Shown here in pieces: positions 4,820 to 33,741 of a DNA stretch of 64,000 bases; within the stretch, counting starts at the first letter, position 1, and every line of letters starts with the position of its first letter. The notes under the pieces are model-generated. The model did not search any database and had not been told where the DNA came from. It saw only the letters and a program-made list of their open reading frames with translations. The position numbers and the translations under genes are program-made. Source of the stretch: an uncultured Dehalococcoidia bacterium (lineage in GTDB: Bacteria > Chloroflexota > Dehalococcoidia > Lucifugimonadales > UBA3495). Where the stretch lies: contig OY282565.1 of assembly GCA_958296445.1 (NCBI GenBank), forward strand, positions 1,501,570-1,565,569, in the 5' to 3' direction.

Positions 4820-6172
4820 CTAAGCGCTCTTGAAGGTTTCTTCCTTGGCTAGGCTCCGCATAAACTTGAGGTATTCGGCGCGGGTCATCTCCGGCCGGTG
4901 TCGGGAAATGATGCCGGCGCCCACTTCTGCGCCGTCAGCCAGCAGGTCTATGGCTGTGGCGGCTAGGGATTTGGCCGCGGTGACCACGGCCAGGGCGTAG
5001 TCTTGCACCACGTAGTCCGCGCCGTGGCCGATGCCGGTGGCGCCGCCTACGTAGGGGTGGATGGCGGGCATCAGGTGGCTGATGTCGCCCATATCGGTGG
5101 AGCCGCCCCGGTGCCGGACGTAGCCGACGTTTTCCTCGCCGACCAGTTGCATTGCGTTGGCCTTGAACACGTCGGACATTGCCCCGTTCTGGCGCAGGGG
5201 CAGATAGCCGGGGATGGTCTGAATCATTACTTCGCCGCCCACGGCCATAGCCCCGGCCTTGAGGGCGCGGTCAACTTTGGCGTTGGCGTCCATTATGGCC
5301 TCGAGGGTGCGGCCGCGGACGAAGGTTTCCATCCGCACGTCGGCCGGCACGGCGCTCACGGCCTCGCCGCCTTTGGTGATGATGGGATGCACGCGGATGC
5401 TGTCCTCGTCGCGGAAGGTTTCGCGGTTGTAATGGATGGCGCTAAGGGCCATAGAAGCGGCGTTGAGGGCGTTGATGCCGAGGTGGGGGGCGCCGCCGGC
5501 GTGGGCGCCGCGCCCGATGAACTGTATCTTTTTTGCTAGGGTGCCGTTGTTGGCTTCGCTGATGCACAACTGTTTTTCATCGGGGTTGGAGGTGGTGTGC
5601 AGCATCATAGCAAGGTCGACGTCGTCGAACTCGCCCAGCCGCACCAACTCCGGCTTGCCGCCCAAGAATTCCAGCTTGCCTTGGCGCCGCAGGGAATCGC
5701 GGTATTCAATTTCGATGTATTCTTCGGCGGGAACGGCCATAAAAGCCAGCCGTCCGCTGAGGGACTCCAGCACGTCGGGTTGCATCAGGGCCATAGCCGC
5801 GCCCATTATCATACCGATCTGGCAGTGGTGGCCGCAGGCGTGGGCGGCGCCGGTGTCGGCGTCGGCGTGGGGATGCTCGTTGACGATGAGCGAGTCCAGC
5901 TCGCCAATGACGGCCAAGGCCGGGCCGGGGCTGCCGCCTACTAGGTCGGCGCGAACTCCGGTGAGGGCCAGGCCGACGCGGGCGGGCATTCCCATTTCGG
6001 CGAACTTGCCGGCCACCAGCCGGGCGGTTTTGGTTTCCCGGAATCCCGGTTCCGGGTTTTCCAGAATCGTCCTGGACAGGCTGACCAGCTCATCGGCTCT
6101 GGAGTCGATGACGTCGGCTGCCCTGCGTTTCAGTTCTTCCTTTGACGGCCTGGCGGCCCCGGCTGAAGACAT
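4820..6172 (-). CDS. M20-family amidohydrolase (AbgB/peptidase D-like), paralogue 1
   Basis: First gene of the two-gene operon; 450 residues and closely similar to its downstream neighbour along the whole length. It has GELDSLIVNEHPHAD, AHACGHHCQIGMI, the metal-ligand region AVPAEEYIEIEY, the lid/dimerisation motif GRGAHAGGAPHLGINALNAA and the C-terminal RGGSTDMGDISHLMPAIHPY. A GAGGTAG sequence lies just before ATG 6172. The stretch of differences (residues about 175-200 and 290-340) may set different substrate preference or may mark two subunits of one complex. No signal peptide, so it acts in the cytoplasm. Confidence 0.9.
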   Translation of the reverse strand: MSSAGAARPSKEELKRRAADVIDSRADELVSLSRTILENPEPGFRETKTARLVAGKFAEMGMPARVGLALTGVRADLVGGSPGPALAVIGELDSLIVNEHPHADADTGAAHACGHHCQIGMIMGAAMALMQPDVLESLSGRLAFMAVPAEEYIEIEYRDSLRRQGKLEFLGGKPELVRLGEFDDVDLAMMLHTTSNPDEKQLCISEANNGTLAKKIQFIGRGAHAGGAPHLGINALNAASMALSAIHYNRETFRDEDSIRVHPIITKGGEAVSAVPADVRMETFVRGRTLEAIMDANAKVDRALKAGAMAVGGEVMIQTIPGYLPLRQNGAMSDVFKANAMQLVGEENVGYVRHRGGSTDMGDISHLMPAIHPYVGGATGIGHGADYVVQDYALAVVTAAKSLAATAIDLLADGAEVGAGIISRHRPEMTRAEYLKFMRSLAKEETFKSA

Positions 6173-24326: not shown

Positions 24327-27300
24327 ATGCAGAGGTTCGATGTTACCGGAGAGCCGCATTGGGATTTAGCCCGGGAAGGCATTGCGCGGTTGAGGATGCT
24401 GCCGGATTCCGTTGCCGAATCGGAAGTTGAATCGCATTTGCGCTCCATCCTGTCTCACCTGTTCCCCGGCCTGCGATACCCGGACATAGCGACGCAATAC
24501 CCCTCCGGGGACGGGCCGATAGACGTTTACTGCCGCAACGTAGTTTTTGAAACCAAGCGTCAGGGCAAGAAGGACGATGCCCGAATCAAGCCTGACGGCT
24601 CTACCGAAACCCCGGAAGAGCAGGCCGTTCGATACCTTGACGCCTTGACCAGACAACGGGCTTTGTTTGACTCCGGCGGCATCATCTGGCGGGCTTGTGT
24701 CACCGACGGCAAGGAATGGAGCTTCTATAATTATAACCCCGACTTCGATTCGCCATCGGCCCAGCGTCTCACTTCGGATAAAGAACTTCGGCTTGACGCT
24801 CCTGAAAGGGACGAAGAGCTTTTAGGGTATTTGTATCAGTTTGTTGATCGCACTACGAAACTGGCCCCGCCCACTGACAACGAGATATGGGTGGAAAATC
24901 TGGCCGGGCAGTATATCGCTCTGGCTGCCGGTTGCGATCAGTCTGCGGCCTATGACGTGAAAAGGGCGCTATGGCGCGACGTGTTGCGAGGGGCTTACCT
25001 TACCCCGCCCGGCGACAGCGCCGCCGAGCGTGACCTGTTCGCTCGCCACACTATGCTGGTAGTCGTTGCCCGCGCGGTGGCGGAAACCATTCGCCCGGCG
25101 GAGCAGCAACCCGGCGGCCGGGAAATTCGTCAAATCGTGCTCACCGAAGGCTTTGCCGCTTGGGTACTGGATGCCGCAGACGCGGACGGGGAAGCCCTGC
25201 TGAACGACACGGTTACGGAAATTGACCGCTATGAATGGCGGGCACAAAACCGGGATGCGCTGAAAGACCTGTATCACGCCGTCATTCCCCGCAACATCCG
25301 CCACGATTTCGGCGAATACTACACCCCCGACTGGCTGGCCCGCGCCGTGTGTGAAGAAGTGATGGATGCGGAATGGCGGCGGGAAGTTATCGAGATGGCC
25401 GTAGCCGGCCAATCGCAAGGCCCGGCAGTGCTGGATCCTTCCTGCGGCTCCGGCACCTTTTTGTATCACGCTACCCAACTGTTGCTGGAGGACGCCCGAA
25501 AGCACCCGGAGCTGGCAAACAGCCCGCAAGCCCAAGTCGAAATCGTCAACGCTTTGGTTGCCGGGATTGATTTGCACCCGGTAGCCGTTGAATTGGCGAA
25601 AACCACAAAAATTTTGGCGTTTTCGGACTTGGCGGTTTATGCCAGCTCCCAAGACACAGCCGAAGTATATCTTGGCGACAGCCTTCAATGGGAGACTCGC
25701 CGCAACCGCGCGTTGTTTGAACTCGGCGATTTGGTGGCCGTCCCCACCGACGACCCGGATGCCCCTTTGCGGCTGCCTCGAAATTTTCTGCTGTCAGACC
25801 ATTTCCTGCCCCGTCTGCGGCAGATATTTGACTATGCTGGGCGTCCCGAGTATCCAAGTATTGAGGATGACCTGGCAGCGGTGCTTGGCCTCAATACAGG
25901 CGCCGAGAGGACGGCTATCGTTGAAACTTACCGCCGGTTTCGCCAGTACATATCGGGAGGACGCAACCACGTATGGCAATGGTATATCTCAAATTTGGTT
26001 CAGCCATACCGATTAACGCAACAGCCAGCGTCCCGGATGGTGGGCAATCCGCCTTGGGTGGTCTACAACGCGATGACCGTTGAGCGGCAGGACGCCTTCC
26101 GGCAGCAGGCACAGGACCGTAAGCTATGGGCATCCGCCAATTTGGCGACGCAGAACGACATAGCGGCCACTTTTGCCGCTACCTGCGTTGATTATTACCT
26201 AAAGCCTGATGGCAAGTTTGGCTTTGTCCTGCCTTATGCCGCTCTAGAGGCCAGGCATTGGGAGGCTTTTCGCAGTGGGGTCTGGAGTTTACCGGAAACC
26301 TCGGGCCGCCAGCCAACGCTGATAGACCTCAGCAAAGGGGGTTGGGACTTGATGGGTCTCAATTCACCTCCCTTCCCCCAAGCGAATTCGTCGGTGATTT
26401 TTGGAACGAAGCTAGGCGCTGGCCGTCGCCGCCTCCAGCTACAGGCAGTTCCATTGTCCGGTATTCAGGAAATTTCCAACAGCGAAAGGGTCAATCCTAA
26501 AATGCCATGGGATGAGGTTAGCCCCAAATTAACATTCACTCCCCGGCTGGCCCATCTCACTAAGTCCAGCGAAGCCTACGTCAATGCGTTTCGCAACGGA
26601 GCGACCCTTTTCCCTCAGCCGTTGGTGGTTTTCGAGCAGCCCCTCTCCAGAGCTTTGGGGAAAGTATACTTCAGAACCAATACCGGCAGAGAGACATGGG
26701 CAGGTTCGTCGCGGAACGGCCAGGTTGAAGAAAGATTTGTAAAACCGGCGTTGTTTTCCCGTCTGTTGTTGCCTTTTGGCGCCACAGGCCAATCCCACAT
26801 CATCGCGCCTTTCACACAAGATGGCCGCAGATTGGAAACCGGGCTTCCGCAAGGGGATGATGCGGCCGATTTCCGTTTGTATTGGGATAATGCCGACCGG
26901 GACTGGCGCAGGTTGAGCGGCCCTCGTCCGCCACATACATTGCTTGACCGAGTTGACTATCAGGGAAACTTGTCGTCGCAACTCGGCAAGCCGGAGCCCG
27001 GCAAAGTAGTTTATCAGCGTTCCGGCTCTTGGCTTACTTCCAGCGTGGTTCCGGCGCAGATTATTGCGGACGGGACGCTGAACTGGTACGCATCCGACGA
27101 TGAAAACGAACTTCATTACTTGGCGGCAATTTTCAACGCCCCCGGCTTGGCAGAGTTCTTTAAGGAGTATTGCCGCGCCTCAGACCGCCACTTTCAGATG
27201 GGGCCGGTTGAGAATCTGCCCATTCCAAGGTTCGACCCCAAAAACGAACACCACGCCAACTTGGCGGCGCAGTCGGCGCTGGCCCATCAGCGGGTGACGG

Positions 27301-27449
27301 CGATGGTGGCGGAGCGGCAGGCAGGCAGACGGCGAATCAACCGCAACGATGTATTGCGCGACCGGGATATGCAGCCCATCCTTGATAGCATTGACCAGTC
27401 GGCGCGAGCAATTCTGCCGGATTATTGTTCTGCGGCCGCCAACCTGTGA
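24327..27449 (+). CDS. type IIG-like restriction endonuclease-methyltransferase fusion
   Basis: 1040 residues in one chain. N-terminal nuclease: PIDVYC (D66) followed by VFETKRQG (E75-x-K77), a PD-(D/E)xK site. Middle: adenine-specific DNA methylase with HDFGEYYTPDWLAR, the AdoMet loop VLDPSCGSGTFLYHA near 368-382 and catalytic NPPW at about 574-577. The C-terminal third (NLPIPRFDPKNEHH and helical parts) is the target-recognition region. Such Eco57I/MmeI-like enzymes cut and protect the same sites. All motifs are intact. No separate methylase, specificity or transposase gene lies next to it; as a stand-alone unit it would be an acquired defence gene in the aromatic cluster. Confidence 0.92.
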   Translation: MQRFDVTGEPHWDLAREGIARLRMLPDSVAESEVESHLRSILSHLFPGLRYPDIATQYPSGDGPIDVYCRNVVFETKRQGKKDDARIKPDGSTETPEEQAVRYLDALTRQRALFDSGGIIWRACVTDGKEWSFYNYNPDFDSPSAQRLTSDKELRLDAPERDEELLGYLYQFVDRTTKLAPPTDNEIWVENLAGQYIALAAGCDQSAAYDVKRALWRDVLRGAYLTPPGDSAAERDLFARHTMLVVVARAVAETIRPAEQQPGGREIRQIVLTEGFAAWVLDAADADGEALLNDTVTEIDRYEWRAQNRDALKDLYHAVIPRNIRHDFGEYYTPDWLARAVCEEVMDAEWRREVIEMAVAGQSQGPAVLDPSCGSGTFLYHATQLLLEDARKHPELANSPQAQVEIVNALVAGIDLHPVAVELAKTTKILAFSDLAVYASSQDTAEVYLGDSLQWETRRNRALFELGDLVAVPTDDPDAPLRLPRNFLLSDHFLPRLRQIFDYAGRPEYPSIEDDLAAVLGLNTGAERTAIVETYRRFRQYISGGRNHVWQWYISNLVQPYRLTQQPASRMVGNPPWVVYNAMTVERQDAFRQQAQDRKLWASANLATQNDIAATFAATCVDYYLKPDGKFGFVLPYAALEARHWEAFRSGVWSLPETSGRQPTLIDLSKGGWDLMGLNSPPFPQANSSVIFGTKLGAGRRRLQLQAVPLSGIQEISNSERVNPKMPWDEVSPKLTFTPRLAHLTKSSEAYVNAFRNGATLFPQPLVVFEQPLSRALGKVYFRTNTGRETWAGSSRNGQVEERFVKPALFSRLLLPFGATGQSHIIAPFTQDGRRLETGLPQGDDAADFRLYWDNADRDWRRLSGPRPPHTLLDRVDYQGNLSSQLGKPEPGKVVYQRSGSWLTSSVVPAQIIADGTLNWYASDDENELHYLAAIFNAPGLAEFFKEYCRASDRHFQMGPVENLPIPRFDPKNEHHANLAAQSALAHQRVTAMVAERQAGRRRINRNDVLRDRDMQPILDSIDQSARAILPDYCSAAANL

Positions 27450-27551: not shown

Positions 27552-28625
27552 CTAGGGCTTGGCGATGGCTAGGCATTTGCTGGAGTTGAATACGTAGGTT
27601 TGGAGGAACTCTACGATTTCCGGGGGGCGCTGGAGTTCGGACATTGCGCCGGCTAGGCACATCCAGTTGAGCATTTCCTGTTGGCCGGCGTCCTCGATTT
27701 GGGCGGTGGTCAGGGTGCGCCAGGCTTCGTAGTCGCCGGCCTGGAACTCCTCGAACCTTTGGCGGTCGGAGTCTACGTCGCAGTAGAGCAGGCTGTTTTT
27801 TTCGGTTAGGAAGGCGTGGGACCAGCTTGAGGAGGCGATGAGGGCGATGCGCCAGGGGCTTTGTTGCAGGGCGCGGGCGGCGGCGGCGCCCAGCTCCATA
27901 CAGCGGCGGGGGGAGGGGCCGGGGGGGTCGGCGGGCATTTCCCGCTGGATGCCGCCGGGGCCGGTGACGGTCTGGGGGGTGGCGCCGCCCCGGTTGCGGA
28001 TGATGCGGCTGCCGTAGCAGTTGACGGCGAAGGGGATGATAGGGTAGTCGAAGCCTTGGCGGTCGTAATCCAGATAGAGCAGGGTGTTGAGGAAGGCGTG
28101 GCCCAGGCCCGGTTCGTGGAGGGGCTTGTAGGCGTAGGCTACGTCGAAGCCGTCGCCAATGAGGGCCCCGGCTAGGTAGCGGGCCGAGGGGTGGCCTTGG
28201 TAGCGGAAGGTTTTTTCGGGGGGTTCGCCCCAGACGTTGGGCCGGGCGGCGCCGTCTTTGGCGGCGAAGGGGCGGCATTCATATTCGTCGTAGGCCATAA
28301 CGCAGAAGGCCGGGATGATGTCCTCGCGGAAGTTTTCGTACTGGTCGTCGCCCCAGACCAGCACTGCGTCGGGGTTGAAGGCGTCCAGTTCGGCGCGGAT
28401 TTTGCGGAAGCCGTCCACCAGCTTTTGGCGGTGATGCAGGGCCGAGGCGTAGCCTTGGTCGTCGCCCCATTCCTGGCGCATAGGGGCGGGCCAGTTTTCG
28501 GGGTTCTTGCGCTCGGCGGGGATGCGCTCGTTGCGGAGGGCGCGGGTGAGGGAGTAGTTTTTGAGTTCGTCGGGGGTGATGAGGGAGGGGGAATGGGTGA
28601 CGCCGACGCCGAGGATTTCTGCCAT
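27552..28625 (-). CDS. LigB-type (class III) extradiol dioxygenase
   Basis: 357 residues from ATG 28625 with GGAGG five bases upstream. The start MAEILGVGVTHSPSLITPD carries the conserved iron-binding His of the LigB family; VLVWGDDQYENF, FLNTLLYLDYDRQGFDYPIIPF and the second-half ASSSWSHAFLTEK supply the other conserved positions. The family cleaves protocatechuate, gallate or related rings. It adds a second, unrelated ring-cleavage enzyme to this neighbourhood. Fragments of another copy of its 5' end lie at 29833-29946 and 30940-31029, so the gene has been locally duplicated and broken. Confidence 0.9.
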   Translation of the reverse strand: MAEILGVGVTHSPSLITPDELKNYSLTRALRNERIPAERKNPENWPAPMRQEWGDDQGYASALHHRQKLVDGFRKIRAELDAFNPDAVLVWGDDQYENFREDIIPAFCVMAYDEYECRPFAAKDGAARPNVWGEPPEKTFRYQGHPSARYLAGALIGDGFDVAYAYKPLHEPGLGHAFLNTLLYLDYDRQGFDYPIIPFAVNCYGSRIIRNRGGATPQTVTGPGGIQREMPADPPGPSPRRCMELGAAAARALQQSPWRIALIASSSWSHAFLTEKNSLLYCDVDSDRQRFEEFQAGDYEAWRTLTTAQIEDAGQQEMLNWMCLAGAMSELQRPPEIVEFLQTYVFNSSKCLAIAKP

Positions 28626-28756
28626 AGGGGGCCTCCGTCCGTGGTGGTTTGCGCCTAGCTTTGATAAAGCGGCGGGATTTGTCAAGGGGGCAGGCCAGAA
28701 GTAAGGCTATATTAAACTAATCGAAGTGCCAATATATGTTAATATTATTCTGCTAC

Positions 28757-28785
28757 TTGACAATCGGTATAATAACTGTTACACT
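28757..28785 (+). promoter_or_regulatory. strong sigma70-type promoter for the A+T-rich orphan gene
   Basis: TTGACA (28757-28762), 17 bases, TACACT (28780-28785), within an A+T-rich spacer unlike the surrounding DNA. A TATAAT also lies inside the spacer. The transcript would have a leader of about 70 bases before ATG 28864, which has AGGAGATAACC upstream. Confidence 0.7.
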
Positions 28786-28863
28786 CGCTTTGAAGCATTG
28801 AGTAATGAAGTGGTGTTTATAGTCCCACAAAAAACCCTAGCCACAATTAGGAGATAACCTAAA

Positions 28864-29826
28864 ATGGAAGGCAACGTAGATCATGGAAAATACTCTAGGG
28901 AACTGGCGCTTGTGTATTCCTTGCAAGATCTCAGCGAATTCAAACGGAAACTAGAGCTTAGAAGGACATCTTCTTCGGTATTGGCTCTTTTTGATCTCAG
29001 AACTTCTCAGCTCCAAGAAATTCACGGGCTACTACGAGCAGTACAGACTGGTCATTGCGATGTATTTTGGAGGTGGTTCCACGAAGAAAGCAACAAAGAA
29101 GGCAACAAATCCAAAATTTTCGAAGAAGCCGTAGTTCAAGGAATGTCGTTTCTGTACGAATTTGATATCGCTCGCTTCCTCGAAAAACACGGGATTAGCT
29201 ATGGCGGCTACTTTCGAGGAGATGTAGAAACCATGATCCTTGGTAAGAAAGGATGGAATGAAAATGACGTCATGCAGCAATTAGACCTCCGAACCGGCAA
29301 GAGCGTCAAAGTCTACTCTGAAGAGATGCTTCTGGCCTTTCTAGGATGCGGCAAGGACCCGTTTAGCGGTGGGGAAGCACTGCTGCGGTACTTTAGCCGC
29401 AATCACTCTGGCTTGGAATTTCTCCGGGAGATAGGTTTTCGCTGGCCATCCACCGATGTGTTCCCCGGCACTGAACATTTGCCAAAGCCAGACTGGCCTG
29501 AACTTGGGATCCTAAAATATATGGGCTATTCAGTAGGGGAGTATGGAAAGCCCCTACAGTGTCGGCGCGAAATTCTTAAGAGAGTCTTTGAGACTGAGGA
29601 GTTGCCGTTAGTCGAATCTTGGGGATACAGAGAGCAATGGGGGCCGGCTCGGTCGAGAACTCGGTTGAGCAAAATGGCTGAATCAATAGCGAGTTTCGCA
29701 AAATTAAGGAAGCGTGCAGTAGGGTTTGATAAGGCAATTGAAGATTGGGAAACCGATCTTGATTGGCTGAAGGATACTTTCTACACTGGTCGCTTCCGTT
29801 TTCAGTGGCCCAATATCTGGGCATGA
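28864..29826 (+). CDS. orphan protein of unknown function on an A+T-rich insert (possible defence gene)
   Basis: 320 residues. No signal peptide or membrane segment. The N-terminal two-thirds are mixed alpha/beta with several W and F positions (FWRWFHEES). The C-terminal part, from about 210 on, reads LGILKYMGYSVGEYGKP, then REILKRVFE, WGYREQWGPARSRTRLSKMAESI and a helical end with EDWETDLDWLK; this pattern of a GYxVG strand, RRxxL helix and WG-P-S-RL helix recalls an uncharacterised C-terminal domain I have seen in defence-type proteins, but I cannot name it. Base composition is visibly more A+T-rich than neighbours and the spacers are too, so it is probably a recent acquisition. Own promoter and ribosome binding site. 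Confidence 0.7.
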   Translation: MEGNVDHGKYSRELALVYSLQDLSEFKRKLELRRTSSSVLALFDLRTSQLQEIHGLLRAVQTGHCDVFWRWFHEESNKEGNKSKIFEEAVVQGMSFLYEFDIARFLEKHGISYGGYFRGDVETMILGKKGWNENDVMQQLDLRTGKSVKVYSEEMLLAFLGCGKDPFSGGEALLRYFSRNHSGLEFLREIGFRWPSTDVFPGTEHLPKPDWPELGILKYMGYSVGEYGKPLQCRREILKRVFETEELPLVESWGYREQWGPARSRTRLSKMAESIASFAKLRKRAVGFDKAIEDWETDLDWLKDTFYTGRFRFQWPNIWA

Positions 29827-29832
29827 TTCTGT

Positions 29833-29946
29833 GTCGCCCCATTCCTCGCGCATAGGGGCGGGCCAGTTTTCCGTGTTCTTGCGCTCGGCGCTGGGATGCG
29901 CTCGTTGCGCAGGGCGCGGGTGAGGGAGTAGTTTTTCAGTTCGTCC
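29833..29946 (-). pseudogene. fragment A of a second ligB copy (about codons 19-55)
   Basis: GTCGCCCCATTCCT onward matches the native gene at 28461-28573 with few changes. An extra two bases (CGGCGCTGGGATG against CGGCGGGGATG) break the frame, and both ends are missing. It cannot encode an enzyme. Both this fragment and fragment B have TTTTTCA where native ligB has TTTTTGA, so they descend from the same extra copy. Confidence 0.85.
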
Positions 29947-29952
29947 AGGGTG
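29922..29952. repeat. left direct repeat flanking NYN module 1
   Basis: GAGGGAGTAGTTTTTCA (29922-29938) is repeated exactly at 30939-30955; with imperfect extension the match is about 30 bases (GTTCGTCCAGGGTG against ATTGTCGGGGGTG). The two copies flank the roughly 1-kb NYN module 1 like a target-site duplication or a recombination scar. Confidence 0.75.
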
Positions 29953-29987
29953 GGTTGCGGGGGATTATAGCGCGGAATGGGCGGTGG

Positions 29988-30536
29988 CTAGAGGCGGACG
30001 GAGTTTACTAGGGGCTGGTCTATTCGGAAGTGTTCGTCCACTTCCTCCATCAGGTCGCGGTGGGGGTTTCTGCCGTGGTACAGCTTTATGATAACGCCCC
30101 GGTTCTTGGCGGTGGCAATGGCAGGGATGAAATCGCTGTCGCCCGCGATTATGATTGCTTGCTGGATAAGGCTGTCGGCGGCCAGCAGGAGCAGGTCTAC
30201 CGCCAGCAGGATGTCCACTCGCTTTTGTTCGTAAATGGGCGAACCATCCGCTGCAAAGCCGCGCTGTTCAACCCTCCCCAGACGGACAGTATATCTTGGC
30301 ATTAACCTCAAGGCGGAAAAGAACTGCCGTTGTCTGGCATACAGGGCGCTCTCCTGCGCCGTAGGGGGATTGCTCTGGTAAGGGAGTGAGGAGTAAAAGT
30401 ATGTTCTGAGCAGATTTGTGTTTTCAGACAGCTTTTGCGGCAACAATTCGTAATCGATGCGGACGCCTCCGAACTCGTCTCGTAAGAGATAGAAAAGATA
30501 TGCTCCGTCGATAAAAATCGCGCATCGCTCCTGCAT
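29988..30536 (-). CDS. NYN-domain (PIN-like) ribonuclease of module 1
   Basis: 182 residues. Start at ATG 30536, chosen for GAGGAG seven bases upstream. NYN domain acidic residues are all present: D10 in FIDGAYL, D108 and D114 in KRVDILLAVDLL, and D133/D135 in IIAGDSDFIPAI, the set that binds metal in LabA/DUF88-like NYN RNases. The chain ends with helix KNRGVIIKLYHGRNPHRDLMEEVDEHF. Upstream on the same strand are a terminator-like hairpin, five stem-loop repeats and a promoter-bearing 82-base repeat. That order (promoter - repeat RNA - terminator - nuclease) is the layout of type III toxin-antitoxin loci, though known toxins there are ToxN-fold proteins. I infer an RNA-neutralised RNase; not proven. 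Confidence 0.85.
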   Translation of the reverse strand: MQERCAIFIDGAYLFYLLRDEFGGVRIDYELLPQKLSENTNLLRTYFYSSLPYQSNPPTAQESALYARQRQFFSALRLMPRYTVRLGRVEQRGFAADGSPIYEQKRVDILLAVDLLLLAADSLIQQAIIIAGDSDFIPAIATAKNRGVIIKLYHGRNPHRDLMEEVDEHFRIDQPLVNSVRL

Positions 30537-30556
30537 ACAGCGGCTCCTCAATCAAT

Positions 30557-30590
30557 GAAAATGGGGCCGTAACATCACGACCCCATTCTC
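30557..30590 (-). terminator. terminator-like hairpin between the stem-loop array and NYN gene 1
   Basis: On the minus strand GAGAATGGGG and CCCCATTTTC form a 10-base-pair stem (one G-U pair) around a 14-base loop; the 3' arm is followed by ATT. It lies 20 bases before the NYN ATG. It would let most transcripts stop after the repeat RNA and some run into the gene, as in type III toxin-antitoxin loci. Confidence 0.65.
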
Positions 30591-30596
30591 GGTTCG

Positions 30597-30845
30597 CCTG
30601 ACGTGAGCCATAGCCGACGTCAGGAGGTAAAACAGCCTGACGTGGGCCGCGGCCGACGCCAGGGAGATAAACAGCCTGACGTGAGTATCCGCGCAGCGCA
30701 GGGGCTGGCGGGCCGACGCCAGGGGGATAAAACAGCCTGACGTGAGTATCCGCGCAGCGCAGGGGCTGGCGGGCCGACGCCAGGGGGATAAAACAGCCCG
30801 ACGTGAGTATCCGCGCAGCGCAGGGGCTGGCGGGCCGACGCCAGG
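30597..30845 (-). ncRNA. array of five stem-loops (candidate antitoxin/guide RNA) upstream of NYN gene 1
   Basis: Each unit has the arms CCTGACGT and AC(G)(T/C)CAGG. Plus-strand positions of the arms: 30597-30604/30617-30624, 30636-30643/30656-30663, 30675-30682/30716-30723, 30736-30743/30777-30784 and 30797-30804/30838-30845. The first two have 12-base loops; the last three share an identical 33-base loop and 61-base period. Spacers are 11-12 bases ((G)GGATAAAACAG type). Arm changes give G-U pairs only if the RNA is read from the minus strand, the strand of the NYN gene, which argues for a structured minus-strand RNA. No open frame is conserved between units. Confidence 0.75.
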
Positions 30846-30857
30846 AAAATGAACAAC

Positions 30858-30939
30858 TCAAGGGTAGCAGCTTCGGGCTATGGCCGTCAACCGGGGCTTT
30901 GGCCTTGAGGCAGCCGGTTTCCTTGCCTTGCCCGGCCCG
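30858..30939 (-). promoter_or_regulatory. 82-base promoter repeat of NYN module 1
   Basis: An 82-base block present again at 31607-31688 with two differences. On the minus strand it contains TTGACG (30885-30890) and TACCCT (30861-30866) 18 bases apart, so transcription would begin about 10 bases before the first stem-loop. The block's far end is the junction with ligB fragment B. Confidence 0.65.
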
Positions 30940-31472
30940 AGGGAGTAGTTTTTCAATTGTCGGGGGTGATGAGGGAGGGGGAATGGGTGACGCCGCCGCC
31001 GAGGATTTCTGCCATAGCGGGCCTCCGTTACGCCCTCGTTTTTGGCTACGGCAATCGCTGGCACAAAGTCGCTGTCCCCGGCGATTATGACTGCCTTGCT
31101 GATGTGGCCCTTAGTCGAATGCTGCACCAAGTCAACAGTTAAGAGGATATCCACCCGCTTTTGCTGGAATCTGGGCGAGCCGTCACTGTGTGCGCCGCGA
31201 ATTTCCAGTCGGCCCAAACGGAAAGAAACCCGCGGCAGGGTACTAACCCGGTGATAGTACCGCAACCAGTCGGCGTACCGGGCGCGTTCCGTTTCCGTAG
31301 GCGGGTCGCTTTGGTAGGGGGCGCAGTGATAGTAGTAAGTCCGAAGCAGATCAGAACCTGCCGATAACTTTTCTGACAGCTTTTCCAGGGCGATGGAAGC
31401 CCGCGAAAATTCAGAGTTAGCAACCACTTCCAAATAGGCGCCGTCAATAAATAATGCCACCCGGTCTTGCAT
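30858..31472 (-). CDS. NYN-domain ribonuclease of module 2, C-terminus replaced (probably damaged)
   Basis: From ATG 31472 (GAGAGG six bases upstream) the first 148 residues parallel NYN 1: FIDGAYL, KRVDILLTVDLV, IIAGDSDFVPAI and AVAKNEGV. After about position 31030 the reading frame leaves the family and runs through ligB fragment B and the promoter repeat, adding about 56 basic, low-complexity residues before the stop at 30858. The acidic core is intact but the last helix of the family is lost, so the protein may be inactive or altered. The 5' side has its own hairpins, terminator and promoter repeat. Confidence 0.65.
   Translation of the reverse strand: MQDRVALFIDGAYLEVVANSEFSRASIALEKLSEKLSAGSDLLRTYYYHCAPYQSDPPTETERARYADWLRYYHRVSTLPRVSFRLGRLEIRGAHSDGSPRFQQKRVDILLTVDLVQHSTKGHISKAVIIAGDSDFVPAIAVAKNEGVTEARYGRNPRRRRHPFPLPHHPRQLKNYSLGPGKARKPAASRPKPRLTAIARSCYP
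30939..30955. repeat. right direct repeat flanking NYN module 1
   Basis: Exact copy of 29922-29938 (GAGGGAGTAGTTTTTCA). Here it belongs to ligB fragment B; on the other side it belongs to fragment A. This shows module 1 lies inside what was one continuous extra ligB copy. Confidence 0.75.
30940..31029 (-). pseudogene. fragment B of a second ligB copy (start codon and about 26 codons)
   Basis: Matches native ligB 28546-28637, including GGAGGCC before the ATG and MAEILG, THSPSLITPD, but reaches a stop after about 20 codons and is cut off by the promoter repeat. Its 5' side is fused to the truncated end of NYN gene 2. Confidence 0.85.
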
Positions 31473-31492
31473 ACACGGCCTCTCAAAAGAAA

Positions 31493-31514
31493 GGGGCCGC
31501 GTCTCCACGGCCCC
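31493..31514 (-). terminator. terminator-like hairpin between the stem-loops and NYN gene 2
   Basis: GGGGCCG (31493-31499) and CGGCCCC (31508-31514) form a perfect 7-base-pair stem with an 8-base loop; read on the minus strand it is followed by TTTCTTTT, so it looks like an intrinsic terminator. It lies 20 bases before the NYN 2 start codon, in the same place as in module 1. Confidence 0.75.
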
Positions 31515-31524
31515 ATCTGGCTTG

Positions 31525-31592
31525 CCTGACGTACCCCGATAGTGAACGCCAGGAAATATATTTGCCTGACGTACCCCGAGGCGAACGTCAGG
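31525..31592 (-). ncRNA. two stem-loops (candidate antitoxin/guide RNA) upstream of NYN gene 2
   Basis: Arms CCTGACGT/ACGCCAGG (31525-31532/31546-31553) and CCTGACGT/ACGTCAGG (31565-31572/31585-31592), loops of 13 and 12 bases sharing ACCCCGA...(T)GA, spacer AAATATATTTG. Stems are the same as in module 1 but loops are different, and again the one non-canonical pair is G-U only in minus-strand RNA. Confidence 0.7.
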
Positions 31593-31606
31593 GAATATGA
31601 ACAATA

Positions 31607-31688
31607 TCAAGGGTAGCAGCTTCGGGCTATGGCCGTCAACCGGAGCTTTGGCCTTGATGCAGCCGGTTTCCTTGCCTTGCCCGGCCCG
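31607..31688 (-). promoter_or_regulatory. 82-base promoter repeat of NYN module 2
   Basis: Second copy of the block at 30858-30939. Minus-strand TTGACG (31634-31639) and TACCCT (31610-31615) again 18 bases apart. Conserved bases continue a little into the leader (TTGA..TTGTTCAT), then the stem-loops begin. Confidence 0.65.
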
Positions 31689-31750
31689 CCGGTAGGGGCG
31701 ATAATGGCGGCAACAACCTTGAGTGCGCTTGGGGGCGCGGGAGGCAGAGT

Positions 31751-32569
31751 ATGGATTGGGGAATGGCTAACCGTATGGGGCAACTGATTCAGTCGGATGG
31801 GCGGTGTATGTTTCTGCCCGTTGACCACGGGTATTTTCAGGGGCCGACGCGCAATCTGGAGCGGCCCGGCGAAACTATCGAACCCTTGATGCCCTATGCC
31901 GATGCTCTGTTCGCCACCCGGGGGGTGGTGCGGGCCGTCGTTGACCCGGCCGAGGCGAAGCCGCTGATTCTGCGGGTGTCGGGCGGCACCAGTATGACCG
32001 CCGGCGACTTGGCCGACGAGGGGCTGACTACTTCGATGGAGGACGCCGTGCGGCTCAATGTGGCCGCCGTCGGCATATCGGTGTTCATCGGCTCCGAATA
32101 CCAGAAGCAGTCGATCCTGAATCTGGGCAAGCTGGTGGACGAGGGCGAGCGGTACGGCATTCCGGTGATGGCGGTGACTGCCGTGGGCCGGGAGCTGGAC
32201 CAGCGGGATTCCCGCTATCTGGCGATGGCCTGCCGCATCTGCGCCGAAATGGGGGCCAAGGTGGTCAAGACGTACTGGTGCGCCGACGGTTTCGACCGGG
32301 TGGTGGACGGCTGCCCGGTGCCGGTGGTGATGGCCGGCGGCCCTAGGGCCGATACCGAGCTGGAGGTGCTGGAGTTCGTCCACGACGGGATGCAGAACGG
32401 CGCCATTGGCATCAACCTGGGGCGCAACATCTGGCAAAGCCCCCACCCCGTCCCTATGATTCGCGCCTTGCGCCACGTCGTCCACGGCAACGGCACGGTG
32501 GCGGAGGCGAAGGAAATCTTTGATTCGGCCCGCGCCGGGGCCGCCGAGCTGGTGGGCGTTTCGGATTAG
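31751..32569 (+). CDS. LsrF/DhnA-family class I aldolase (3-hydroxy-5-phosphonooxypentane-2,4-dione thiolase-like)
   Basis: 272 residues of the DhnA-type fructose-bisphosphate aldolase family. MFLPVDHGYFQGPT is the conserved N-terminal active-site loop and AKVVKTYWCADGF carries the Schiff-base lysine (K173). VPVVMAGGPRADTELEVL and GAIGINLGRNIWQSPHP complete the phosphate-binding end. Closest match in my reading is LsrF, the last enzyme of AI-2 degradation, but there are no other lsr genes here, so it may serve another phosphorylated substrate. Preceded by GGGAGGCAGAG and by the NYN module's promoter repeat pointing the other way. Confidence 0.85.
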   Translation: MDWGMANRMGQLIQSDGRCMFLPVDHGYFQGPTRNLERPGETIEPLMPYADALFATRGVVRAVVDPAEAKPLILRVSGGTSMTAGDLADEGLTTSMEDAVRLNVAAVGISVFIGSEYQKQSILNLGKLVDEGERYGIPVMAVTAVGRELDQRDSRYLAMACRICAEMGAKVVKTYWCADGFDRVVDGCPVPVVMAGGPRADTELEVLEFVHDGMQNGAIGINLGRNIWQSPHPVPMIRALRHVVHGNGTVAEAKEIFDSARAGAAELVGVSD

Positions 32570-32625
32570 GGCCGGGGTTTTAACGCAAAGCAGACAGAGA
32601 GCGGGGTTTTTCGATTCTTGGGATT

Positions 32626-32691
32626 TTTGTCTGAATCAGGATTTTCCCATCCGGTGAATCCTTTAATCCTGAAAATCCTGATTCAGACAAA
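32626..32691. terminator. perfect 21-base inverted repeat between aldolase and alcohol dehydrogenase genes
   Basis: TTTGTCTGAATCAGGATTTTC (32626-32646) is the exact complement of 32671-32691, with a 24-base loop. Related single arms occur at about 6335, 46308 and 51458. It could terminate the aldolase transcript or be a mobile palindrome remnant. It ends 15 bases before ATG 32707. Confidence 0.6.
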
Positions 32692-32706
32692 GTAAGGCAG
32701 GCGGTT

Positions 32707-33741
32707 ATGCGGGTAGCGATGTATTACAGCAACAATGATGTGCGGGTCGAGGAGGCACCGGAGCCGCAAATCGGGCCGGGCGAGTTGTTGCTCAGGATTG
32801 AGGCCAGCGGCATTTGCGGCAGCGACGTTATGGAGTGGTATCGGGTTCAGAGGGCGCCGCTGGTGCTGGGCCACGAAGTGGCCGGGACGGTGGCGCAGGC
32901 CGGGCCGGGGGTGGCGCAGTTCCGCGAGGGCGACCGCTTGGTGGTGACCCATCACGTGCCTTGCAACGCCTGCCGCTACTGCCTGAACGGACGCCACACG
33001 GTTTGCGACACGCTGCGGGCCACTAACTACGATCCCGGCGGTTTCTGCGAATATGTCCGTCTGCCGGCGATTAACGTTGACCGCGGGGTTTTTCCCATAC
33101 CGGAGGGGGTGCCTTTCGACGAAGCCTCGGTAGCCGAGCCGCTGGCCTGCGTCTACCGGGGCCAGCGGCGGGCCAATATCCGGCCGGGGCAGTCGGTGCT
33201 GGTGCTGGGCAGCGGGTTGGCCGGGCTGTTGCACATCAATCTGGCCCGGGCTTTGGGGGCCGGGCGCGTCGTGTCTACCGACCTGTCGGACTTCCGGCTG
33301 GCGGCGGCCCGGCGGCTGGGCGCCGACGCTACGCTGCGGGCCGATGAGTATTCCCCGGAGCGGCTGCGCGAGGTGAACCGCGGCCTTTTGGCCGACTTGG
33401 TTATTGTGGCAACCGGAGCCCGGCCCGCCCTGCTCCAGGCCCTGGAGTCGGTGGAGCGCGGCGGGACGGTGCTGTTCTACGCCCCCACCGAGCCGGGCGT
33501 TGAGGTGCCGGTAGCGGTCAACGACGTCTTTTTCCGCAACGACGCCACCCTTACCACCACCTACGCCGCGGCGCCGGGCGACCTTGCCACTGCGCTGGAG
33601 CTAATCGCCTCGGGCCGGGTTCAGGTGGGCGATATGATTTCCCATCGCCTGCCCCTGGAGCAGACGGACTTGGGCTTCCGCCTCACCGCCGGGGCGTCCG
33701 ACTCGCTTAAGGTGGTGATACAGCCGCATCAGCAGGGATAA
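32707..33741 (+). CDS. zinc-dependent alcohol dehydrogenase, MDR family (threonine/sorbitol dehydrogenase-like)
   Basis: 344 residues. Catalytic zinc ligands: C37 in GICGSD and H56-E57 in LGHEVAG. Structural zinc: C86, C89, C92 and C100 in PCNACRYCLNGRHTVC. Rossmann motif VLVLGSGLAGLLHI near 160-175. It oxidises an alcohol or polyol with NAD(P). The downstream half has FFRNDATLTTTYAA, typical of the sorbitol/threonine branch. Substrate not defined. The preceding gene is an aldolase and the next are flavin oxidoreductases. Confidence 0.9.
   Translation: MRVAMYYSNNDVRVEEAPEPQIGPGELLLRIEASGICGSDVMEWYRVQRAPLVLGHEVAGTVAQAGPGVAQFREGDRLVVTHHVPCNACRYCLNGRHTVCDTLRATNYDPGGFCEYVRLPAINVDRGVFPIPEGVPFDEASVAEPLACVYRGQRRANIRPGQSVLVLGSGLAGLLHINLARALGAGRVVSTDLSDFRLAAARRLGADATLRADEYSPERLREVNRGLLADLVIVATGARPALLQALESVERGGTVLFYAPTEPGVEVPVAVNDVFFRNDATLTTTYAAAPGDLATALELIASGRVQVGDMISHRLPLEQTDLGFRLTAGASDSLKVVIQPHQQG

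Follow-up and report, generated by a model that had tools for sequence, protein, structure and literature searches.

A candidate type-III-like RNA-antitoxin module with a predicted NYN-family ribonuclease in an uncultured Dehalococcoidia bacterium and its relatives in Bacteria and Archaea

The stretch of DNA analysed here (64,000 nucleotides (nt), below called the window; positions 1501570-1565569 of the 4.0-Mb single-contig genome of an uncultured Dehalococcoidia bacterium) carries on its minus strand two neighbouring modules, in each of which a promoter-like site is followed by RNA hairpins, a terminator-like hairpin and a gene of the NYN (PIN-like) ribonuclease family. A preliminary description had taken both for toxin-antitoxin modules of type III architecture, in which RNA repeats neutralise a ribonuclease. 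All the elements listed there were recovered: two 82-nt repeats with a TTGACG-18-TACCCT promoter-like site, five and two stem-loops ahead of the NYN genes, the terminator-like hairpins, the GAGGAG and GAGAGG sites and the genes themselves. As to the number of modules, the claim holds in part, since the first is intact and encodes an NYN protein of 182 amino acids (aa), whereas the nuclease of the second is truncated.

In module 1 the promoter region is formed by copy 1 of the 82-nt repeat (30858..30939, minus strand, as are all the features of both modules), which is 98% identical to copy 2. The promoter-like site (30861..30890) consists of a -35 hexamer TTGACG (30885-30890), an 18-nt spacer and a -10 hexamer TACCCT (30861-30866); with 8 of 12 matches to the sigma-70 consensus it is weak, and it stands 15 nt ahead of the first hairpin, as in the relatives considered below. 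Three 49-nt hairpins follow (30797..30845, 30736..30784 and 30675..30723, scoring 27.1, 31.2 and 31.2 bits with the covariance model R1), two of these units being identical and the third nearly identical; hairpins 2 and 3 lie within a 61-nt direct repeat, and hairpin 3 has a long upper part. The last two hairpins are of a short form (30636..30663, 37.4 bits, and 30597..30624, 38.5 bits). Ahead of the fifth stands UUACCU, which agrees in part with the conserved AUAYUC box discussed below; this hairpin scores 27.8 bits with the model R3, which comprises the box plus the hairpin. Between the array and the gene lie a terminator-like hairpin with a U tract (30557..30590, recognised by its terminator scan score and by folding) and a Shine-Dalgarno-like site GAGGAG (30544..30549); the gene, NYN-1 (29988..30536, ATG at 30536), encodes the predicted toxin. 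Module 2 begins with copy 2 of the repeat (31607..31688, with TTGACG at 31634-31639 and TACCCT at 31610-31615), followed by hairpin 1 with its box AUAUUC (31565..31598, the hairpin itself at 31565-31592; R1 33.2 bits, R3 36.8 bits), hairpin 2 with its box AUAUUU (31525..31559, the hairpin at 31525-31553; R1 32.2 bits, R3 30.8 bits), a terminator-like hairpin with a U-rich tail (31482..31514, stem 31493-31514, found in the sequence and by folding), a Shine-Dalgarno-like site GAGAGG (31479..31484) and NYN-2 (31029..31472), 53% identical to NYN-1 and lacking the C-terminal ~34 residues. The hairpins of the window are among the seeds of all three covariance models used here (R1, R2 and R3).

The array is confined to this locus: the pattern CCTGACGTN{8,38}ACGYCAGG gave eight matches over both strands of the whole 4.0-Mb genome, at six of the seven window hairpins and nowhere else, and the reversed pattern, taken as a control, gave none. 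Both leaders fold better than their shuffled versions (z -5.1, none of 100 shuffles as good, for module 1; z -4.5, none of 200, for module 2), the minimum-energy fold of module 2 being one in which the two repeats pair mutually rather than form two separate hairpins. Judging by its sequence, module 1 is predicted to be active and to yield five RNA units per transcript. In NYN-2 the NYN similarity ends past residue 148, at the start of a duplicated fragment of the neighbouring LigB-type gene (30959-31028), and the missing residues include several that are conserved among the relatives of NYN-1; this suggests that the second module is probably a relic, in which two RNA units were kept and the nuclease was truncated.

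Both proteins match the Pfam family NYN (E 1.1e-16 for NYN-1 and 8.3e-13 for NYN-2). A sequence search of the PDB gave no NYN relative at E<=1, so a fold search was needed; its nearest structures are VPA0982 (PDB 2qip) and the NYN domain of MARF1 (PDB 5yaa, 6fdl), and the AlphaFold2 (AF2) model of NYN-1 has a mean predicted local distance difference test score (pLDDT) of 94.2 and a predicted template-modelling score (pTM) of 0.90. Asp10, Asp108, Asp133 and Asp135 are invariant in an alignment of 32 proteins, and these active-site residues are 98-100% conserved among the 53 proteins labelled hairpin-bearing in the tree described below. The model of the PADLOC candidate anti-phage defence system HEC-09 (PDLC04163), which has no curated cut-off, matches NYN-1 (E 2.9e-13), NYN-2 (E 2.2e-8) and eight of eight relatives scanned (E 4.7e-10 to 4.5e-6), several of these matches being local. 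According to the excerpts of PMC11346440, the NYN protein associated with clustered regularly interspaced short palindromic repeats (CRISPR) in Bacteroides fragilis is a proven single-stranded RNA endonuclease.

Co-occurrence of the array or hairpin with the NYN gene in relatives, which the preliminary description had put forward as the test of its reading, was found in several phyla. The leader-bearing NYN clade spans Chloroflexota, Planctomycetota, Bacillota, a Bdellovibrio and three archaeal groups (Methanomicrobia, Pacearchaeota and Aenigmatarchaeota), and the order of elements ahead of the relatives' genes is conserved: promoter, hairpin, terminator, ribosome site, gene. Since the co-occurrence is positive and the order conserved, the type III reading is well founded in architecture; its tandem repeats proved occasional, one hairpin being usual. 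Tandem units occur in the window (five and two) and at three other loci (L045, L096 and L148; loci and genomes are designated by L and G numbers), with repeated boxes in module 2 and L096, and there is one unit in the other relatives read.

The hairpin consists of a 7-base-pair lower stem, two weak or mismatched positions, a C-G pair and a variable upper part, with a G-N-Y-C core. The two weak positions are U-A plus C.C in most Chloroflexota, U-A plus U.G in Planctomycetota, Bacillota and part of Methanomicrobia, and A.A plus U-A in two of the three Pacearchaeota and in Methanocorpusculum. Among 38 hairpins, including those of Bacillota, Bdellovibrio and archaea, standard pairs make up 93.7% compared with 76.1% in shuffled sets, and double-sided changes occupy 72 cells compared with 22.9 +/- 4.9 (a value reached in 0 of 500 shuffles; slid registers gave 2-12). 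Outside the hairpin, the AUAYUC box, which occupies the 6 nt on its 5' side, is shared by bacteria and archaea: in 47 loci, from which near-copies such as L014, L051, L058, L063, L065, L133 and L135 were left out, the six positions are matched by A in 39, U in 41, A in 33, Y in 32, U in 29 and C in 42, and this flank played no part in the selection of hairpins. At least 9 of 12 promoter positions are matched in 22 of the 33 bacterial leaders (the window's own site has 8) compared with 7.9% of base shuffles. The base of the hairpin lies 15-18 nt past the -10 hexamer in 21 of the 22 well-scoring promoters; given standard initiation, the transcript is predicted to start ~8-11 nt ahead of the hairpin. 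Of 54 loci, all of them previously classed as hairpin-bearing, 40 have a terminator-like element between the hairpin base and the start codon, compared with 13.6% of dinucleotide shuffles, and in some loci the hairpin itself serves as the terminator stem. Early automatic hairpin finders often picked the terminator, and their per-locus shuffle test was not used as evidence.

No known RNA family accounts for these leaders: Rfam covariance models gave no leader match at E<=1 in window positions 28000-33000 and none at E<=0.5 in 12 relative loci. A DNA operator is disfavoured, given a covarying stem whose arms stand anywhere from a few nt to ~70 nt apart.

Covariance-model searches tie the hairpin to the gene. 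Model R1, built from 20 hairpins of Chloroflexota and Planctomycetota, gave 39 matches at E<=10 in 96 loci (609 kb), and all 39 are hairpins of NYN leaders or their reverse complements. In 393 genomes of the window's class it found NYN leaders only, with five matches in four genomes at E<=0.02; all four had supplied seeds to R1, and the search filters were stricter there, so that weak matches were lost. In ten NYN genomes searched at E<=1, there was one weak match elsewhere (G027, E 0.14). In a held-out test, model R2 was run on 43 loci, with a raw count of 19 at E<=0.2; removal of five loci identical to seeds (L104, L107, L108, L130 and L134, equal to L046, L044, L047, L064 and L068, respectively) and of two doubles (L137, equal to L070, and L151, equal to L058) left 36 distinct loci, of which 13 have a match in the NYN leader at E<=0.2 and 16 at E<=2. 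Among the 13, four lie near seeds (L014, L040, L135 and L142) and nine are more distant (L015, L070, L138, L139, L140, L146, L147, L148 and L152); the results on the box, the promoter geometry and the tree do not depend on this count. R2 found nothing in 242 kb from 45 loci that hold distant NYN homologues. Some of the loci lacking an R2 match end at a contig edge.

The hairpin also follows the phylogeny of the protein. In a tree of 89 NYN proteins, 53 of them hairpin-bearing as judged by eye, the character changes 10 times, compared with 28.4 times when shuffled (0 of 500). No hairpin is present in the 14 'IFIDGSNLYHSL'-type NYN proteins of Chloroflexota, nor in a clade of 11 rows from Spirochaetota, Pseudomonadota and Oligoflexales. 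The tree left out L066, L069, L070, L097 and L151 together with many near-copies and distant homologues, and counted as positive L049, L051, L058, L109 and L110; L088, labelled hairpin-less, has a weak R3 match at its leader (E 0.3). Three loci of Gemmatimonadota (L050, L055 and L056) combine NYN genes of the clade and a TTGACA-type promoter with strong leader hairpins of a different kind, possibly a diverged RNA type.

Methanomicrobia provide a view of the RNA apart from the nuclease. A motif-first search with R3 in 199 genomes gave 32 matches in 28 genomes at E<=0.2. The NYN gene is present in 17 of the 28, in 16 of which the match lies just upstream of it, and in the other 11 no NYN gene was found at E<=1e-25; therefore the RNA can outlive its gene. 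Three NYN genomes lack an R3 match (G548, G562 and G585): in G548 (L139) and G585 (L130) the leader carries the hairpin, and in G562 the NYN gene is at a contig edge. Thirteen of the 16 R3 matches away from NYN are at E<=0.005, with ~1 expected by chance in 199 genomes, these E-values being rough. Fourteen of the 16 were read by eye (G639:C21 and G599:C57 were left out), and most of them still have a T-rich tail and, upstream, a TATA-like stretch. L179 and L182 keep a remnant of the NYN start 13-15 residues long; at the other solitary loci tblastn found no credible NYN remnant. Eight related solitary loci retain pairing in the lower stem, and in one of them (L184) a base pair has changed in a compensatory way. 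Survival of the RNA beyond its gene, seen also in module 2, fits an antitoxin better than a cis-acting leader. In G599 the hairpin and the NYN gene are on separate contigs (L178, L128) whose ends resemble the two ends of an insertion sequence, and the module looks to have been split by it.

Considering these data, we favour, with moderate confidence, a type-III-like RNA-antitoxin module with an NYN toxin, in which the hairpin RNA would keep the predicted ribonuclease inactive. Most transcripts would end at the terminator, leaving the hairpin RNA in excess over the NYN mRNA. The NYN protein would recognise the box and the hairpin and be held inactive by them, perhaps trimming tandem arrays into units. 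Should the supply of RNA drop, as it might on the shut-off of host transcription by a phage, the freed NYN protein would cut cellular RNA and growth would stop.

The known type III systems combine a single promoter with RNA repeats, a Rho-independent terminator and a MazF-like RNase; their RNAs are pseudoknots, and every type III toxin of solved structure has the same MazF-like fold (PMC5086642, excerpts). Like ToxIN, CptIN and TenpIN, the module described here has one promoter, RNA units on the 5' side of the toxin gene (in tandem in the window), a terminator in between and the ribonuclease gene last, as well as a scattered distribution and an RNA predicted to neutralise the protein. Unlike them, it has an NYN/PIN-like toxin with catalytic Asp residues instead of the MazF/Kid-like ToxN fold, and its RNA is an AUAYUC box plus a hairpin (modelled as a hairpin only), mostly in one unit. 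The protein being positively assigned to NYN by the Pfam match and the fold search, the toxin fold differs, and we therefore do not regard the module as a member of ToxIN, CptIN or TenpIN; as the promoter and the terminator are found, the repeats occur in some loci and the fold is another one, it is filed as type-III-like. It also differs from type III systems in its occurrence in Chloroflexota, Planctomycetota and several archaea and in that no plasmid copy was found in the records searched, type III systems being found on plasmids too (PMC5086642, excerpts).

Several observations weigh against this interpretation. At E<=1 R1 missed three of the ten NYN genomes (G092, G184 and G242) despite their leader hairpins, and in five loci (L049, L051, L058, L109 and L110) the hairpin was recognised by eye and missed by R2, in L049, L109 and L110 by R3 as well. 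Ten members of the clade (L048, L050, L052, L055, L056, L067, L071, L095, L112 and L149) have no matching hairpin by model or by eye, and at L067 lies the one off-site R2 match that is not a reverse complement (E 0.21), R3 matching the same place (E 0.074). The hairpins were chosen by eye, and as hairpins, so that the pairing score is to some extent a product of the selection; the tests on the box, the promoter geometry, the terminator, the held-out loci and the tree are free of this bias or less affected by it. The terminator scan was negative in 14 of 54 loci, several of which have a loop exceeding the scan's 13-nt limit, and most relatives have a single hairpin and no array. In the eight solitary loci of Methanomicrobia the identity of the flanks (62-99%) brackets that of the hairpin (86%); with flanks about as conserved as the hairpins there is therefore no proof of selection, and the solitary hairpins could reflect an RNA role independent of NYN. 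Finally, tblastn of 72,556 plasmid and 50,697 phage records found no NYN homologue.

The main rival explanation, which we consider unlikely, is an autoregulatory leader: the hairpin would be a cis element, and NYN would bind or cut its own 5' leader, or control read-through of the terminator, thereby keeping its level constant. RNase E and RNase III are familiar cases of a nuclease that acts on its own leader; the predicted NYN transcript has the hairpin, mostly a single one, at its 5' end, and no copy away from NYN appeared in the Chloroflexota scan at E<=0.02. Against it, box, hairpin and TATA-like stretch occur in the 11 motif-bearing Methanomicrobia genomes that have no NYN gene at E<=1e-25, and module 2 has kept its RNA units beside a truncated gene; in 40 of the 54 loci the terminator-like signal would release the hairpin as an RNA of its own, tandem arrays with repeated boxes would be unnecessary, and the NYN gene is accessory. 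Still less credence is given by us to a ribonucleoprotein effector, that is, a single-operon defence complex whose hairpin RNA would be a required cofactor, scaffold or sensor activating or targeting NYN rather than inhibiting it. The co-occurrence of RNA and protein in the hairpin clade, the conserved single-stranded box beside the hairpin, the weak HEC-09 matches in ten of ten scanned proteins, truncated NYN-2 included, and the type IIG restriction-enzyme-like gene that is the next insertion in the window would all suit it. On the other hand, the related NYN of B. fragilis cuts RNA without an RNA partner (PMC11346440, excerpts), no guide-like sequence was seen, the 49-nt units of module 1 being identical or nearly so, and an activating RNA is not expected to survive the loss of its nuclease.

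It might be argued that the hairpins are chance or structural repeats, REP-like (repetitive extragenic palindromic) or plain terminators, with no tie to NYN. REP-like palindromes are common in bacteria, and in some loci the hairpin doubles as a terminator. We find this very improbable: NYN leaders of several phyla share register, core and box, and a REP-like or other genome-wide repeat was rejected because the pattern is confined to one locus in 4 Mb and R1, at E<=0.02 and under the stricter filters, finds NYN leaders only, with no Chloroflexota copy elsewhere in the 393 genomes.

Returning to the module as an RNA-antitoxin system, its genes behave as accessory ones. Close NYN homologues are patchy, with frequencies of ~1-10% depending on the group: the window's class has them in 11 of 393 genomes, Methanomicrobia in 20 of 199, Planctomycetota in 4 of 294 and the class of Alicyclobacillus in 5 of 299 (each group with its own threshold, the query genome included). 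Two NYN copies of Methanomicrobia (L139 and L140) have an in-frame stop, the hairpin being kept. In a small sample no neighbour is shared: of 20 flanking proteins at 11 loci, 12 have a Pfam family and eight have none, and a conserved operon partner was rejected, the 12 families being all different. In the window both modules belong to a ~3-kb accessory stretch (28626..31675) that also holds a 320-aa open reading frame (ORF); it is missing at the same place from G001, of the same genus, because the flanks ending at 28625 and beginning at 31676 align there only 151 nt apart. A gene resembling type IIG restriction-methyltransferases (24327-27449, plus strand, 1040 aa) is likewise missing from G001, with 23 nt between the aligned flanks; two separate insertions therefore flank the LigB gene. 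The 98% identity of the 82-nt repeats, compared with 53% for the NYN proteins, and the far end of these repeats, which resembles the native sequence upstream of the aldolase gene, suggest that the modules of the window may have arisen where they stand, by duplication or recombination. Partial copies of the LigB gene's 5' part occur at three places (28461-28638, 29833-29952 and 30939-31028). The 320-aa ORF (28864-29826, plus strand) has no match in Pfam, NCBIfam, PADLOC or PHROGs and only nine other homologues at E<=1e-5 in a large protein set. The region separating the aldolase gene from the alcohol-dehydrogenase-like gene holds a perfect inverted repeat of 21 nt with a 24-nt spacer (32626-32691, plus strand), probably a terminator or a small repeat element.

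As to mobile carriers, plasmid or phage carriage of the gene was rejected, since tblastn gave no match in the plasmid or phage records. IMG/VR gave no match with a single protein and two remote matches (25% identity) with the alignment. Three scans of viral contigs with hairpin patterns yielded one, zero and two matches, a few being expected by chance on a rough estimate, with no NYN frame within 900 nt downstream. A box-like AUACGC with a hairpin having all the core pairs and no NYN alongside was observed on a phage-like contig with portal- and terminase-like ORFs (L165, IMGVR_UViG_3300035688_000544, 4854-4885, minus strand; R3 29.3 bits, E 0.0014 for 253 kb searched); a decoy of the RNA carried by a phage is one possible reading, but chance matches are to be expected in the pattern scan from which it came.

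Among other NYN and PIN-like proteins, MARF1 is a eukaryotic multidomain protein for which we know of no RNA partner gene. VapC and the other type II PIN-domain toxins are PIN-like RNases with a protein antitoxin, while the only candidate antitoxin observed upstream of the NYN genes is an RNA element. VPA0982 is counted among the bacterial NYN ribonucleases. Rae1/YacP is another of them, and the CRISPR-associated NYN of B. fragilis belongs to a type III-B CRISPR locus as a proposed trimmer of CRISPR RNA, with no hairpin leader described (PMC11346440, excerpts). HEC-09 is a protein model with no RNA part; one paper names it, and no functional description of it was found in open-access PMC text, a body that leaves preprints and most subscription papers outside. 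Searches of the same text brought up no paper in which an RNA antitoxin is paired with an NYN nuclease, in agreement with the preliminary description, which knew of no type III family with an NYN toxin.

We see about even chances that these modules represent a new class of RNA-antitoxin systems across Bacteria and Archaea, with an NYN/PIN-like toxin and an AUAYUC-hairpin RNA, independent of the ToxN-fold type III systems, the solitary RNAs being leftover antidotes. The NYN module is testable because Alicyclobacillus and Methanoculleus, two genera holding the clade, have cultured members. If the reading is true, a second, unrelated nuclease fold stands under the control of an RNA antitoxin, and this kind of control would have arisen more than once. 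The box and the core at fixed positions across two domains of life would then make up a concrete RNA-protein recognition code, and the widespread 'uncharacterized LabA/DUF88' proteins would gain a possible role.

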